In this document: positions 4,036 to 64,000 of the stretch, piece after piece
Numbering within the stretch: position 1 is the first letter of the stretch
Layout of the letters: every line of letters starts with the position of its first letter
NCBI GenBank assembly: GCA_012517855.1
Contig: JAAYUD010000058.1
Location: forward strand, 16,654 to 80,653
Source: Bacteroidales bacterium
GTDB lineage: Bacteria; Bacteroidota; Bacteroidia; Bacteroidales; Bacteroidaceae
Reading direction: 5' to 3'
DNA length: 64,000 nt
Notes under the pieces: generated by a model
Databases searched by the model: none
What the model saw: only the letters and a program-made list of their open reading frames with translations
What the model was told of the DNA's origin: nothing
Program-made: the position numbers and the translations under genes

Positions 4036-4533
4036 ACACTTCCTTATAATTATGCTCAAAAGTAAATAAAAATAAGTCGCCGTACAAACGAGTACACAAA
4101 TTAATTATCACAGTGCGCATTATCAATGCAATTTTCCTGCTTTGCCTTATCCCAAAAATTCACTAACAGTACTATACTAATATCGTCCCTTTTTGCTTTT
4201 TGAATTACAAAAATCAAAAAGAGATGTTCTCTTCCTTATGTTTTTTACGACTCACGAGCGTGAGTCGCAAGCTATATATAGACGGAAAAAACTTTGGCTC
4301 ACCAGTAAAAGTAGGGGAATTAAGCATGATGGCATTCGGGTACTTAGATCCGAGACAGAGAATAGATTTATATTAATAAGTTGTTGCAGAGGACGTGAAA
4401 TATTTATCTATTTTGCAGAAAAAAATTGTATAAACAGCCACATAGATGTTGTCTTACTCTATGTAAATCGTTGGAGTGCACACCCCATTGACACAGAAAC
4501 AAGTTATGATACAACACTTTGCCTACAATCCAT

Positions 4534-4876
4534 TTTTCAGAACGTATTTCAATGTGAACATTCCCCGACATTCTGATACTTTCTTATCCGAACAGGGGTA
4601 ATAGGCCATTACAGGGCACTATTTTCGTACTCATTTCACCACCCTAATATAAATCGAATCAGAACAAGACATGAAGAGATAACGTGCAAGAGACTGATAT
4701 ACAGCGACAAATTCATAAGGACGAAAATAAATGTTTATACTTACAAACATTTATATTCGTCCTTATCATTTTTCGAAAGCAAAGGTTCATTTTGTATATC
4801 AAGAAATAGCATTTCAGTGTAGTTAAAAAAGTATCAGAATGTCGAGGAGTATTCACCTTCCAAAACGCTCTGAAAA
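4534..4876. repeat. Nested ~343 bp segment bounded by ~51-bp imperfect inverted repeats
   Basis: 4534-4584 (TTTTTCAGAACG...CTGATACTTTCT) is the reverse complement of 4826-4876 at roughly 78% identity, counted by eye. Confidence 0.6.
4715..4766. repeat. Long hairpin, 22-bp arms with one mismatch
   Basis: ATAAGGACGAAAATAAATGTTT / AAACATTTATATTCGTCCTTAT. Confidence 0.8.
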
Positions 4877-5265
4877 CTGGCACCAATATTACTACTTTAG
4901 ATTAACACAATCTTGCGTCAACGAGGATGTACGTCTTGGACTCATCAGTAAAAAACAGGAAGCTAAGTGGCACGAAGTACTCGATAGATGAGATACACTC
5001 GTCTATGTGCAAAACGGTTCCTCAGGTATCTGTAAGCCATCGTTTAGAATCGTTCTAAGCAGAGGTCCGCTGAAAATAAGGAATCTACAGTATACTCTAG
5101 GGCCGATTTTCGGACCTTTTTCCGCTGGCGTTGTATATGGTGCATCGTTAACATGTTGTATGGCAGTGCCGTATGGTGTCATACGGAGGTGGCAAAGGTT
5201 GTTATGAAGATAGAATTTGATGCATATTCCCGACTTTACTGGTGAGCTTTTACACACCCAAAACC

Positions 5266-5333
5266 ACGTATGTACCTAAATTTGTTGACGTCCATACGTT
5301 TTCAAAAAAACTTAAGGACGTCACCGAAAAAAC
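5266..5333. repeat. 68-bp intergenic repeat, copy A
   Basis: ACGTATG...GTCCATACGTTTTCAAAAAAA...ACGTCACCG AAAAAAC, matching 23903-23970. Confidence 0.65.
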
Positions 5334-5342
5334 TAACATACG

Positions 5343-5376
5343 ACACTTTCGACTCATAGTTATGAGTCGAAAGTGT
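5343..5376. repeat. Perfect inverted repeat, 16-bp arms, 2-nt loop
   Basis: ACACTTTCGACTCATA gt TATGAGTCGAAAGTGT. Confidence 0.85.
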
Positions 5377-15421: not shown

Positions 15422-16858
15422 TTAGAGTAATGGGGATAGTAGTCTGGTAATTGATTCGGCTACTTTATAATACCATTTACGTTTTTCCCAGATGCTAAGG
15501 ACTACTTGATTGCAGTTACGTTGATCCGTTAAGAATATTTCACGCATCTTTAAGGCCATATTTCTGTCGTAGATAAATGCATTAATTTCAAAGTTATGTT
15601 CGAAACTGCGAAAATCAACATTGGTAGAACCTACGGTAGAAAACAAATCGTCGGATACCATTAATTTAGAATGCAGGAACCCTTTATTATAGAAAAGAAC
15701 TTTTACTCCAGCTTCTAGCAGAAATTTTAAATAGGAAGAACAAGCTAATTGGGATAGCCAACTATCATTTTTTGCCGGTAGCATTAAACGTACATCCACT
15801 CCGGCAAGCGCTGCGGTTTGCATTGCAGACAGTATCGTATCTGTAGGCAGAAAATATGGTGTTTGAATGAAAAAATAGCGTTTTGCACTCAATATGGCTT
15901 GTGTCAATCCTAGCATTATTTCTCGCCAAGGTCCGATTGGCGAGCTGGATACTATTTGTATAATGGAACTGCCACAAATAGCCGAAGAATCAAAATAACT
16001 TTCGGAAGTGATTAATGTGCGATCTACAAAATACCAATCGAGAAGAAAGATAGTCTGAAGTCCATGTACCGCTTTTCCTTCTATCAATAGGTGGGTATCA
16101 CGCCATACACCGTTAGAAACTCCTTTTAGATACCGTAATGCTAGATTCATACCTCCAATAAATCCTATTCGTCCGTCAATAACGACAATCTTTCGATGAT
16201 TACGGTAGTTTACACGGCTTGTGAAAAGAGGAAAACGTACTTTTAGGAAGCTCTTTACTTCAATTCCTGACTCAAGCATTTTTTCAAAAAACTCGTGTGG
16301 CACTTGCCAACAACCTACATCATCGTATATAATTCGTATTTCGACCCCAGCTTTTGCCCGATCTATCAATACGTCGCGTATCAAACGGCCTACAGCGTCG
16401 TCTTCGAATATATAATATTCTAAATGAATATGATGTTTGGCTTTCATCAGCTCTCTGATGAGTCCTTGTAACATTGAGTATCCGTCTGTATATATTTCAC
16501 AGCGGTTGCCTCCTAAAGGAAAAGCTTGTTCCGTCTGACGGAAAAAACTGATGAGCCTGCTATATTCGGGTACATTTACTGTCGGCTCTTGTGCCATATA
16601 TTCTGAAATAGGCATTCGTAGCAACTTGTTGTAGCTCTTTTTATTAATAATGCGCTCTCGGCGAACATTGCGTCCGAAGAAAAAGTACAAAATGAGTCCG
16701 ACAAAGGGAAGAAAGAGCAGAATAAGTATCCACGCAATTGTATGGACTGGGTTTCGGTTATCTAGTACGATAATAATAATGGTACTGATAATCGATCCGA
16801 AATAAAGGATGTCGAATAGAACTTTCCAAGCAATACCTAATATTTGAGACCATTCCAT
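15422..16858 (-). CDS. cls: Cardiolipin synthase (phospholipase D superfamily)
   Basis: Two HKD motifs (NHRKIVVIDGRIGFIGGMN; HSKLMVSDDLFSTVGSTNVD), N-terminal TMs. Confidence 0.94.
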   Translation of the reverse strand: MEWSQILGIAWKVLFDILYFGSIISTIIIIVLDNRNPVHTIAWILILLFLPFVGLILYFFFGRNVRRERIINKKSYNKLLRMPISEYMAQEPTVNVPEYSRLISFFRQTEQAFPLGGNRCEIYTDGYSMLQGLIRELMKAKHHIHLEYYIFEDDAVGRLIRDVLIDRAKAGVEIRIIYDDVGCWQVPHEFFEKMLESGIEVKSFLKVRFPLFTSRVNYRNHRKIVVIDGRIGFIGGMNLALRYLKGVSNGVWRDTHLLIEGKAVHGLQTIFLLDWYFVDRTLITSESYFDSSAICGSSIIQIVSSSPIGPWREIMLGLTQAILSAKRYFFIQTPYFLPTDTILSAMQTAALAGVDVRLMLPAKNDSWLSQLACSSYLKFLLEAGVKVLFYNKGFLHSKLMVSDDLFSTVGSTNVDFRSFEHNFEINAFIYDRNMALKMREIFLTDQRNCNQVVLSIWEKRKWYYKVAESITRLLSPLL

Positions 16859-23839: not shown

Positions 23840-23902
23840 TACTACGCGCTCCACCTTAAAGGCTTTTGTCGAACCTCACAGCTTCTTTATGTTATCCAAA
23901 CG

Positions 23903-23970
23903 ACGTATGCCCTTAAAAATATTTTCGTCCATACGTTTTCAAAAAAATTGAGAACGTCACCGGAAAAAAC
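23903..23970. repeat. 68-bp intergenic repeat, copy B
   Basis: Matches 5266-5333, approximately 80% by eye. Confidence 0.65.
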
Positions 23971-24022: not shown

Positions 24023-24695
24023 GGCTTATCTGCAAAAGTTAGGGGGCTAACCAATATGTAATGAATAAGTTGCCTGAAACTTGCTCGGAACGCTACTGCT
24101 TTTGTAGATATAAAAGAAGTATCACACGTGTGATACATATGTCGCACACGTGTGATACTTCCAGACTTTAATTATAAACTTAATTTTAAATGACCAACTT
24201 GTGAGAATAGTTAATTACAGTTGATACGATGCGCTTCCTTTAAAAGAAGCGTAGAAACCTTATTATATGGTGAATGTCGAACGTGGCAACGATGAAGTTT
24301 GAGGAAGTATACGAGGAATTTGAAAAGACATCGATGCCGACCAGAGGCAGATGTAAAAACGATTGTCGAGGAGTTGTCGCCTTTGCTTGCCTACCACCTT
24401 TCATCGGGCATGAGGTCCTTATCAAAAAGGCTGGAGTACACTTCTCTGTGTACAAAGCGGCTCCACAGTTATCTGTAGGCTGTCGTTTAGAATCATTCTA
24501 AACAAAGGTCCGCTGAAAATAACGGTTCCACAACATACCCTCAATGCGATTTTAAGGCTTTTTTTCGCTGACGTTGTATATGGTGCATCGTTAACCTGCT
24601 GTGAGGCAGCTCCGTATGGTGTCATACGGGAGTGGTAAAGGATATTATGAAGATGGAACTTTATGCATATTTCCCCCTGATTTTGCCAGTGAGCC
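24023..24695. mobile_element. Degenerate non-autonomous IS-like element (copy 2), ISL3-like ends
   Basis: Left GGCTTATCTGCAAAAGTTAGGGGG, right (reverse complement) GGCTCACTGGCAAAATCAGGGGG; flanked directly by perfect 8-bp duplication GTTTAATT at 24015-24022 and 24696-24703. Confidence 0.75.
24117..24160. repeat. Compound palindrome: CACACGTGTG core repeated twice
   Basis: AAGTATCACACGTGTGATACATATGTCGCACACGTGTGATACTT. Confidence 0.85.
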
Positions 24696-33711: not shown

Positions 33712-36396
33712 ATGATGAAAGTTTATTTTCAAATTAATTATTGTACGGCTTGGGGCGAAGAGGTTAGAATAAAATTGATTCAAGCCAATGGGAAAGAAAC
33801 TGTTTATCCTCTTATTACTACCGACGGTAAAGTATGGAGTGGGAGTCTTTCTATTTCTGATGATATTCGTTATCAGTATTGCATCTATGCCAATGGCGAA
33901 TTTTCACGTTCCGAATGGGATGTGAACATGCGTTGCATCTGCTATGGTGGAAATGAAAGAGTGATTCATACAATAGATGCTTGGCGTGACAAACCCGAAA
34001 TGTCTTTTTACTATAGTTCGGCTTTTACCGATTGTATCAGACGCGAAGAGAAGTCCAATAAAAAGGCACAGAAAAAGAAAATCCTCTCTAAAGCAATACG
34101 TCTCCATGTAATTGCTCCTCAGATTACTCGTGATCAGGTTCTTTTCCTTTCCGGTAATCAAAACTTTCTAGGCAAATGGGATACAACAAAGGGCATCCCT
34201 TTGGAGAGAGGTGCGGGATTGCTTGAATGGCAGGCGCAGTTGGATGCATCAACATTAATCCTTCCATTGGAATATAAGTTTTACGTTGTCGATCGTACAA
34301 CAGGAGAAGTTGAGTGGGAAATAGGTATGAACCGTTCTATTGATGATTTGAGTATCCAAGAAAATGAAATGTATGTATTCTCGGATATAACGGCCTATTT
34401 CTCTTGTCCTAGTTGGAAGGGCGCAGGAGTTGCTATTCCTGTCTTTTCGTTGCGTAGTAAAAAGAGTTTTGGCGTAGGAGACTTCGGCGATTTGAAAAAG
34501 ATGATTGATTGGGCTGTGCTTACTCACCAAAGCGTTGTTCAGATTCTCCCGATCAACGATACCACCATCACTCATACGTGGGTAGATTCTTATCCTTATA
34601 AGAGTATTTCAATATATGCGCTTCATCCCATGTATATGGATCTTAATGCCCTAGGCAAACTTAAAGACGCGAAGAAAAGTGCTGCTTTTGCCAAGAGACA
34701 AAAGGAACTGAACGCTCTGTCTCAGATAGATTACGAAGCAGTCAATAGTACCAAGCTCAAATATATGAAGCAGAAGTTTGATGAGGAAGGAGAGGACGTT
34801 CTTAAGTCTGATAAATATAAGATATTCTTTGCAGACAATGAGTCGTGGCTAATGCCTTATGCTGCCTTTTCTTATTTGCGTGATAAGTTCGGTACGGCCG
34901 ATTTCGATCTTTGGGGCGATTACCGGAAGTTTGATCGGCAGAAGATTGCTCAGCTTTGTTCGCCAGAGGGGGCGATATATAAGGAGATAGCTTTCTGCTA
35001 TTATATTCAATTCAATCTTCATCTTCAGCTTTCCGAGGCTGGCGCTTATGCTCGTACACATCACATTATTTTGAAAGGTGATATTCCAATAGGGGTTAGT
35101 CGTCATAGTGTTGAGGCTTGGACTGAACCTCATTATTTCAATCTTGACGGTCAGGCAGGGGCTCCACCCGACGACTTTTCTGTTAAGGGGCAAAATTGGG
35201 GATTCCCTACTTACAATTGGGATGAAATGGCTAAAGATGGTTATGCTTGGTGGAGGCGTCGTTTCAAGCAAATGGCACAGTACTTCGATGCTTATCGCAT
35301 AGATCATATTTTGGGCTTTTTCCGTATTTGGGAAATTCCTATAGATGCTGTTCATGGGTTATTGGGACAATTCTCGCCGGCATTGCCGATGTCTGTTGGC
35401 GAAATACAACGTTACGGTTTGTGGTTCCGTCCCGATGTCTTCACTAAACCGTTCATTAACGATCATGTTCTGGATAAAATATTTGGAGAGCATGCTCAAG
35501 AAGTCAGACTCAACTATTTGCAATCCATCCACGACGAGCGCTATCAAATGTTGCCGCAGTATGATACTCAACGTAAGGTAGAAGAAGCTTTTGCAGGGAA
35601 GACTGATGAAAAGAGCAACTGGCTTCGTGAGGGATTGTATTCGCTTATCAGTGATGTGCTTTTCATTCCCGATCGGAAGAATCCCAATATGTATCATCCG
35701 CGTATCGCCGTTCAATTCGATTTCGTTTACGAAGCGCTGTCGTGGGAAGAGAAAGAGGCATTCAATCGGTTGTATAACGACTATTATTACCGTAGGCACA
35801 ACGATTTTTGGTATCATGAGGCTATGAAGAAGTTGCCTTGCCTCATTGGTGCTACTCGGATGTTGGTGTGCGGAGAAGATCTCGGAATGGTGCCCGATTG
35901 CGTGGAAGCTGTTATGAAGCAGCTTCAGATATTGAGCTTGGAGTTGCAGCGTATGCCCAAAAGTCCGAATGCCGAGTTCGGGCATGTTGCAGAGTATCCT
36001 TATTTGTCGGTTTGCACCTTTTCTTCGCACGATACTTCTACTATTCGCGAGTGGTGGGAAGAAGATTATGGCAAGACAGCACGTTATTTTCAAAACGAAT
36101 TGCATCGGCAAGATGACATACCACCGCATGCTGCCGCTTGGATTTGCAAATTGATAGTCGATATGCAACTCAACAGCAATTCGATGCTTACTATTCTATC
36201 GTTTCAAGATTGGTTGTCCATCAATGAATCTGTTCGTCTTGCCGATGCCTCGGCCGAACGCATAAATATTCCTGCTGATCCGCAGCATTATTGGCGTTAT
36301 CGTATGCATCTGACCCTTGAAGAATTAATGAAAAGTGATGAATTGAATGAAGAAATAAAGAGTATGATAGGCAATAGCGGCAGAAATCAGAAATAA
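33712..36396 (+). CDS. malQ: 4-alpha-glucanotransferase (GH77) with N-terminal starch-binding-like domains
   Basis: GH77 motifs GDIPIGVSRHSVEAW, YDAYRIDHILGFFRIWEIP (FDAYRIDHILGFFRIWEIP in ORF), VCGEDLGMVPDCV, SSHDTSTIREWWE. Confidence 0.95.
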   Translation: MMKVYFQINYCTAWGEEVRIKLIQANGKETVYPLITTDGKVWSGSLSISDDIRYQYCIYANGEFSRSEWDVNMRCICYGGNERVIHTIDAWRDKPEMSFYYSSAFTDCIRREEKSNKKAQKKKILSKAIRLHVIAPQITRDQVLFLSGNQNFLGKWDTTKGIPLERGAGLLEWQAQLDASTLILPLEYKFYVVDRTTGEVEWEIGMNRSIDDLSIQENEMYVFSDITAYFSCPSWKGAGVAIPVFSLRSKKSFGVGDFGDLKKMIDWAVLTHQSVVQILPINDTTITHTWVDSYPYKSISIYALHPMYMDLNALGKLKDAKKSAAFAKRQKELNALSQIDYEAVNSTKLKYMKQKFDEEGEDVLKSDKYKIFFADNESWLMPYAAFSYLRDKFGTADFDLWGDYRKFDRQKIAQLCSPEGAIYKEIAFCYYIQFNLHLQLSEAGAYARTHHIILKGDIPIGVSRHSVEAWTEPHYFNLDGQAGAPPDDFSVKGQNWGFPTYNWDEMAKDGYAWWRRRFKQMAQYFDAYRIDHILGFFRIWEIPIDAVHGLLGQFSPALPMSVGEIQRYGLWFRPDVFTKPFINDHVLDKIFGEHAQEVRLNYLQSIHDERYQMLPQYDTQRKVEEAFAGKTDEKSNWLREGLYSLISDVLFIPDRKNPNMYHPRIAVQFDFVYEALSWEEKEAFNRLYNDYYYRRHNDFWYHEAMKKLPCLIGATRMLVCGEDLGMVPDCVEAVMKQLQILSLELQRMPKSPNAEFGHVAEYPYLSVCTFSSHDTSTIREWWEEDYGKTARYFQNELHRQDDIPPHAAAWICKLIVDMQLNSNSMLTILSFQDWLSINESVRLADASAERINIPADPQHYWRYRMHLTLEELMKSDELNEEIKSMIGNSGRNQK

Positions 36397-36422: not shown

Positions 36423-36511
36423 CTTGCGACTCACGCCCGTGAGTCGCAAGTTTCGTCCTTACGTTTTTTCCGACTCACGGGCGTGAGTCGCAAGCGTCAT
36501 AAGGACGAAAA
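36423..36511. repeat. Compound palindrome between GH77 and GH97: two GACTCACG...CGTGAGTC hairpins interleaved with TTCGTCCTTA/TAAGGACGAA arms
   Basis: CTTGCGACTCACGCCCGTGAGTCGCAAG ttTCGTCCTTACGTTTTTTC CGACTCACGGGCGTGAGTCG caagcgtcaTAAGGACGAAA. Confidence 0.9.
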
Positions 36512-36781: not shown

Positions 36782-38923
<2,142 letters not shown>

Positions 38924-42293: not shown

Positions 42294-42347
42294 GGGCATG
42301 CAATTAATTGATTATTTCCTTTGAGGATGCAATTAATTGTATGCCTC
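42294..42347. repeat. Compound palindrome: CAATTAATTG core repeated twice inside 16-bp arms
   Basis: GGCATGCAATTAATTG ... CAATTAATTGTATGCC. Confidence 0.75.
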
Positions 42348-51273: not shown

Positions 51274-51366
51274 CATTCGTTTGGTGGGCAGCATACAATC
51301 GTTTTCTGCCCACCAAATGATTGTATGCTGCGCAGCAGACAATCATATGCTGCGCAGAAAACGAAT
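51274..51366. repeat. Compound interleaved palindrome between GH13 and GH95
   Basis: TTGGTGGGCAG/CTGCCCACCAA, GCAGCATACAATC/GATTGTATGCTGC, CATTCGTTT/AAACGAATG, TGCTGCGCAGCA. Confidence 0.85.
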
Positions 51367-63337: not shown

Positions 63338-63492
63338 TTCTATTACAAAGATTTTATATGATTTATTTGAGCTCGGGATAAGAAATCAAAAGAAGGCGAA
63401 TCGTTTGTCTTAACGGAATCATCTCCGATAAGTGCTTTCGGCTTGTTTTTAAAGAAGCAGATCGCGGCAATCACTAAAATGGAGCAAAACAA

Positions 63493-63533
63493 GAAAAGGC
63501 ATTATTTCACTCTCTGATATAATGCCTTTTCTA
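63493..63533. terminator. Hairpin terminator downstream of merR-like gene
   Basis: GAAAAGGCATTAT ... ATAATGCCTTTTC TATTT. Confidence 0.7.
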
Positions 63534-63929
63534 TTTGAATAGCTTTTTACTTTTCTTCTTATCTCGAACTAAAAATGAATTATTCAAGCTAATATTTCGC
63601 AAAAAAAAAGTTTTAAGACTCTTTCCGTCACATTATCTCATTGACTATGAGTGATATATATGGATATGATTTGTTTTTGGGACTCTAAAATGGTGTTATC
63701 TTGTTTATTGTTAGTGCGTTATGAAATACGGATCGTCCGTTTCGTATGTCAACCGATTAAGTCATTACTCGTTATCTGTGGTGTGTGCACCGTGTAGCAA
63801 TTCCCGTGCTTATCATTTATGTATGGAAGAGCTCCGGTTCTTTTCATCTAGAAGAAGATTTTTGTACATATCTTATTGAATCATAGTTGTCGTATTTAAA
63901 GCATTTTTGTCGGCTCATTAATGTTTTGT

Positions 63930-64000
63930 CGTTCCACATATGTGATTCGATCAACTCACATATATGGAACGATCGAATCACATATGTGAGTTGATCGAAT
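63930..64000. repeat. Compound interleaved palindrome, cut by window end
   Basis: CGTTCCACATATGTG/CACATATATGGAACG interleaved with ATTCGATCAACTCACATAT/ATATGTGAGTTGATCGAAT. Confidence 0.9.

Follow-up and report, generated by a model that had tools for sequence, protein, structure and literature searches.

Dispersed intergenic palindrome arrays with a common 22-bp spacing and a template-switching signature in a Bacteroidaceae genome

The compound palindrome at positions 36423-36511 of the window (the whole stretch of Bacteroidales DNA analysed here, 64,000 nucleotides long) appears to be a copy of an intergenic repeat that is neither coding nor autonomous, and this prototype would represent one among several palindromic minisatellite families with 22-bp units. 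The favoured and rather probable explanation is that these are non-autonomous, MITE-like palindromic minisatellites that are dispersed through the genome, reshuffled and kept palindromic by template switching. The genome holding the window comprises 3.64 Mb in 114 contigs and is 99.92% complete, the window lying on contig C6. The features concerned are the following.

4231..4271, + strand: single-hairpin copy of the prototype (A) family
4539..4902, + strand: P module, a palindromic repeat of ~400 bp, ~40 loci sampled
5021..5201, + strand: M module, 181 nt, constant in length in 36 copies, ~63 genomic candidates (40 scored)
5258..5349, + strand: X module, a hairpin repeat with >30 copies
23898..23968, + strand: X module copy
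24116..24161, no strand: H24 array, a pair of CACACGTGTG palindromes at a 22-bp distance, ~7 loci
24170..24674, + strand: tail of repeats in the H24 element, made up of R24 and an M module
36423..36450, no strand: prototype hairpin 1, 13-bp arms, centre CC, from a family of 48 cores
36451..36494, no strand: prototype inner arm TTTCGTCCTTACGTTTTTT and hairpin 2, which has the centre GG and is offset 44 bp from hairpin 1
36498..36510, no strand: prototype outer arm CATAAGGACGAAA, which pairs with the inner arm; linker motif with 120 genomic occurrences
42294..42347, no strand: single-copy inverted repeat with 29-bp spacing, outside all families
51274..51366, no strand: array in 22-bp rows, with a second copy on another contig (L212)
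63353..63926, + strand: leader of the 63930 family, with the 19-bp terminal motif TTTGAGTTCGGGATAAGAA at 63366 (+) and 63556 (-)
63927..64000, no strand: 22-bp palindrome array of the 63930 family, CACATATGTG units, cut by the contig end

The prototype is flanked by a GH77 gene (33712-36396, + strand), whose top protein relatives are Bacteroidales proteins of at most 55% identity, and a GH97 gene (36782-38917, - strand), and the interleaved A-B-A'-B' arrangement that the sequence-only reading had placed in this gap was located as claimed. Its first hairpin, CTTGCGACTCACG-CC-CGTGAGTCGCAAG (36423-36450), is formed by perfect 13-bp arms (36423-36435/36438-36450) around a 2-nt centre, the second core, GACTCACG-GG-CGTGAGTC, is offset from it by exactly 44 bp, and the B arms are interleaved with them, TTTCGTCCTTA starting at 36451 and TAAGGACGAAA ending at 36510. 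The RNA-fold z score of the site against shuffles was -10.4 on the + strand and -12.8 on the - strand. The intergenic status that had been attributed to all sites was borne out by the ORF map and, for both neighbours of the prototype, by Pfam.

Searching the genome with the prototype returned 78 partial matches. The 28-nt A core, with up to 3 mismatches, was found at 48 sites in ~36 loci (reversed-pattern control, 0), the best copies being 82-97% identical and occurring in both orientations, and the linker CATAAGGACG(A/T)(A/C)(A/G) occurred 120 times (control, 0). No copy was found inside a credible gene. The stem at 4248-4267, described earlier as shared with the prototype, indeed proved to be that of a single-hairpin member of the same family. 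As for its range, no A repeat was found among 40 genomes of relatives, the exact A core had no match in all other contigs and species of GTDB-220 and was absent from viral contigs, and a composite query was absent from 200 genomes of the bacterial family (30 genera). The A repeat is, among the genomes compared, specific to the source species.

The four other compound sites named by the sequence-only reading are all real inverted repeats, but the one at 42294 is ordinary, with a 29-bp spacing and no second copy, and fits no array. The proposals that the sites share architecture and not sequence, and that they are REP/MITE-like units, stood for the remainder, as four of the five sites belong to dispersed multi-copy families with a common 22-bp phasing (~33 loci for the 63930 family, ~7 for 24117 and two for 51274). 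Palindrome pairs sharing the same half-arm within 100 bp numbered 4 in the window versus 0 in 20 dinucleotide shuffles. A further family of 22-bp arrays, with AACTAACG/TTAGTT half-units, was observed at L032, L043, L079, L096, L103, L237 and other loci.

A regularity that the sequence-only reading had missed concerns spacing. Across the loci compared, 81 of 86 palindrome pairs with the same half-arm were spaced at multiples of 22 bp (44 bp, n=34; 22 bp, n=29; 66 bp, n=18), in a sample comprising ~430 kb of loci selected for their repeats, together with 162 kb from short contigs, where the independent units are five families and not the pairs. Five Markov-resampled control sets contained 0-2 same-arm pairs each at any spacing. 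By an independent measure, distances between identical 8-mers averaged 176 per distance at 22n versus 15 elsewhere, the corresponding values in 80 control loci from other Bacteroidales being 61 and 60. The 22n spacing was seen in the A (44), 63930 (CACATATGTG), H24 (CACACGTGTG), 51274 (GCTGCGCAGC rows) and AACTAACG/TTAGTT families, which obey it without an obvious common sequence. ACTCA..TGAGT recurs in the A, X and 63930 cores, and part of the set may therefore be related by descent. These observations raise the sharp question of why the dyad spacing is identical across sequence-unrelated families, and it counts against the favoured explanation that template switching itself leaves the 22-bp unit in such families unexplained.

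An alternative of lower standing, possible but doubtful, draws on this spacing. The arrays could be binding sites whose dyads, placed on one helix face, are occupied by a cooperative dimeric protein (nucleoid, segregation or regulatory), the sequence families tracking the specificity of paralogous proteins. Twenty-two base pairs correspond to two helical turns, and the exact 22n phasing in unrelated sequences, the core motif common to three families and the 4-bp GATC dyads lying midway between the 10-bp palindromes of the 63930 family, so that a dyad occurs every 11 bp, would all be expected of such sites. On the other hand, the spacers are conserved as well as the dyads and flip as units, many loci hold one or two palindromes only, and there is no candidate protein.

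The explanation as MITE-like palindromic minisatellites draws on the organization of the larger elements. The 63930 element reaches upstream to ~63353, the end of the window being the end of contig C6, and the family is laid out with a ~300-bp leader, then the palindrome array and then a ~250-bp tail. The terminal motif TTTGAGTTCGGGATAAGAA, present in 46 genomic copies (control, 0), is carried by this family and by short relatives of 58-214 bp, and is mostly preceded by or next to TA, as a MITE would have. In fact, the elements are non-coding, 50-1000 bp long and present in many copies, as is required of a MITE. A short MITE-like unit bounded by inverted TTTGAGTTCGGGATAAGAA copies was also observed at 63366-63574. 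The sampled short contigs held no multi-copy transposase ORF, and the sampled TTTGAGTTCGGGATAAGAA end motifs pointed to no obvious parent element. For the prototype family, in which no empty site, target duplication, terminal motif or autonomous partner was found, it is the dispersal of the copies that suggests transposition.

Module mapping revealed that the palindromes are lodged in or beside bigger non-coding composites, made of P, Q, M and X modules. A search extending 60 bp from the margins of the P composites revealed no terminal inverted repeats. The M module, of which a second copy lies at 24466-24641 in the window, has a conserved hairpin (GTTTAGA..TCTAAAC) and appears to be under constraint as a structure of RNA or DNA; it had no match in Rfam, plasmids or viral contigs. 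A coding origin, considered in view of one near-stop-free frame, was rejected for want of codon-position periodicity (entropy 0.48/0.42/0.50), and RNAalifold gave weak structure with little covariation; consequently, the module is claimed as neither protein nor RNA. Across the whole window, Rfam returned chance microRNA-type matches only.

A status as REP/BIME elements, mobilised by a RAYT now lost or missing from the assembly, is improbable for these repeats. Like REP/BIME/REPIN systems with their RAYT (TnpA-REP), they are palindromic, intergenic and present in dozens of copies of alternating orientation, with oppositely oriented pairs, and CGTC-type REPs, also known from Bacteroidetes, likewise lack a dedicated transposase (PMC3733652). 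However, a profile search for Y1_Tnp (PF01797) found none in this genome, for all its completeness, with control matches in 5 genomes, E. coli included; since no Y1/RAYT transposase is present, the system is not a canonical REP/RAYT one. The hairpins differ as well: their stem is 13 bp long, their centre 2 nt, and an unpaired CGTC/GTAG foot is lacking, whereas the published CGTC families have stems of 8-9 bp and loops of 4-5 nt. Mobilization by a structure-recognising enzyme, as suggested from the sequence alone, gained no support, no candidate enzyme being tied to the repeats.

The evidence for template switching comes mainly from the 63930 arrays, in which CACATATGTG recurs every 22 bp with 12-bp spacers between. 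When array states are written with a capital letter for the reverse complement of a spacer, the complete arrays comprise abA (7), acA (4), Aca (2), aCA (2), ACa (2) and five other forms, mostly shorter. For example, L197 (Aca) and L219 (ACa) differ by the inversion of one 12-bp spacer (flanks 90.8% identical, support 0.988), L192 and L199 by a unit loss with inversion (91.0%, support 1.000), and L193 and L213 by the loss of 66 bp (88.1%, support 0.884), unit losses between sister copies spanning 22-66 bp. The variant half-palindrome CACATATATG moves together with its spacer, indicating that the breakpoints are at the palindrome centre. The perfect arms that bound these spacer inversions are 9 bp or more in length, and template switching has been reported to invert spacers and homogenise arms where arms exceed 9 bp (PMC8604942), arm homogenisation being described elsewhere too (PMC8794818). 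Changes of 22 bp within a 76-bp array fit well inside one read and are unlikely to be assembly artefacts, although the genome is assembled as a draft. Such arrays form the ends of several contigs, which partly explains the fragmentation of the draft genome. It was also observed that C6 ends within the 63930 palindrome array and that C14, C41, C71, C91, C110 and C114 begin in or near copies of it.

In the A family, the long outer arms of the hairpins vary between copies yet remain complementary (L025, L038, L051, L058), and such copy-specific but perfect stems fit arm homogenisation by template switching. Compensatory arms would also be expected under selection on RNA or DNA structure, which weighs against the favoured explanation, and arm exchange is less clear here than the inversions of the 63930 family. 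That the inner segment of the A unit is inverted with respect to its outer arms was considered and set aside as not demonstrable, the outer arms being mixed.

The inversions could instead be the work of a site-specific recombinase acting on the segments in a shufflon-like manner, with palindromes as crossover sites, and both the breakpoints at palindrome centres and the 8 tyrosine-recombinase matches and 1 serine recombinase of the genome agree with this. It is nevertheless a very improbable account, as segments of 22 bp are shorter than known recombinases are able to bring into synapsis, no such gene is tied to the arrays, and the inversions are accompanied by unit losses. Equally remote is the idea of plain bidirectional terminators, a function also raised by the sequence-only reading, or of mRNA-stabilising hairpins: among the A loci with two flanking genes (L024-L061, excluding the 63930-family cores that share ACTCA..TGAGT), 12 are convergent versus 4 divergent (p = 0.08), with 14 tandem, but a terminator scan gave no terminator-like site at the prototype, the T-runs of full prototype-family units precede the stem (5') whichever strand is read, contrary to the order in a terminator, and family identity and flips would be left unexplained. 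Overall, the REP/MITE-like character and the common architecture are the parts of that earlier interpretation that are retained, and enzyme mobilization and termination are parts that gained no support; nothing specific speaks for an RNA switch either.

Under the favoured explanation of dispersed repeats remodelled by template switching, copies would reach new intergenic sites by means of a putative mobiliser. Once in place, their arms would be made and held complementary by template switching during replication, and single units would be inverted or lost by template switching and slippage between adjacent palindromes, both steps being suggested by the signature seen in the arrays. The A-B-A'-B' interleaving of the prototype most likely arose from half-arm exchange between adjacent array hairpins, and not as a designed switch. 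The dozens of dispersed copies provide a natural series in which arm correction, spacer flips and the loss of units are directly visible.

A related layout was found beyond this genome. In the sister genome of Bacteroides sp. Marseille-P3684 (L110), positions 15583-15691, intergenic by the ORF map, hold four palindrome-like units of 14 bp, of which three are the perfect palindrome AAACAATATTGTTT, at 22/44/66 bp, in a sequence unrelated to the families described here. Because this unrelated array has the same phase, the 22-bp layout may be wider than one species. Short 22-bp repeats with weaker dyads occur at L106 and L167, and these observations are a lead toward a wider class and not a demonstration of it. 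Only tentatively, and with little probability attached, could palindromic minisatellites with a fixed dyad unit of 22 bp (two turns) be taken as a general, undescribed class of Bacteroidaceae DNA, with sequences of each lineage's own but the same geometry, built, flipped and spread either by a protein phased to the helix or by a dedicated process coupled to replication. A compound-palindrome array of a different period was observed at a metagenome-type Parabacteroides contig end (L112:66-240), where CCAACACGTGTTGG palindromes recur every 42 bp.

Among known systems, the closest in design is BrickBuilt, a MITE/minisatellite of Porphyromonas gingivalis with an intergenic leader, a 23-nt array of changing unit number and a tail (PMC4596501). 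Both are found in Bacteroidales, dispersed, always intergenic, species-restricted and without an internal transposase, and the 63930 family repeats the leader, short-unit array and tail of up to ~1 kb with variable unit number. The inner 10-mers of the 12-nt IS5-type TIR of BrickBuilt, GAGACCTTTGCA, gave 0 matches. The units of BrickBuilt are 23-nt direct repeats, whereas those described here are 22-bp dyad-symmetric inverted units, which fall into several sequence families and undergo inversions. The changes themselves resemble quasipalindrome mutation by template switching (the Ripley model; PMC8604942, PMC8794818) in arm homogenisation, in spacer inversion and in arms of at least 10 bp; that process is known from isolated repeats, whereas here it would be recurrent in ~25 dispersed copies of one array.
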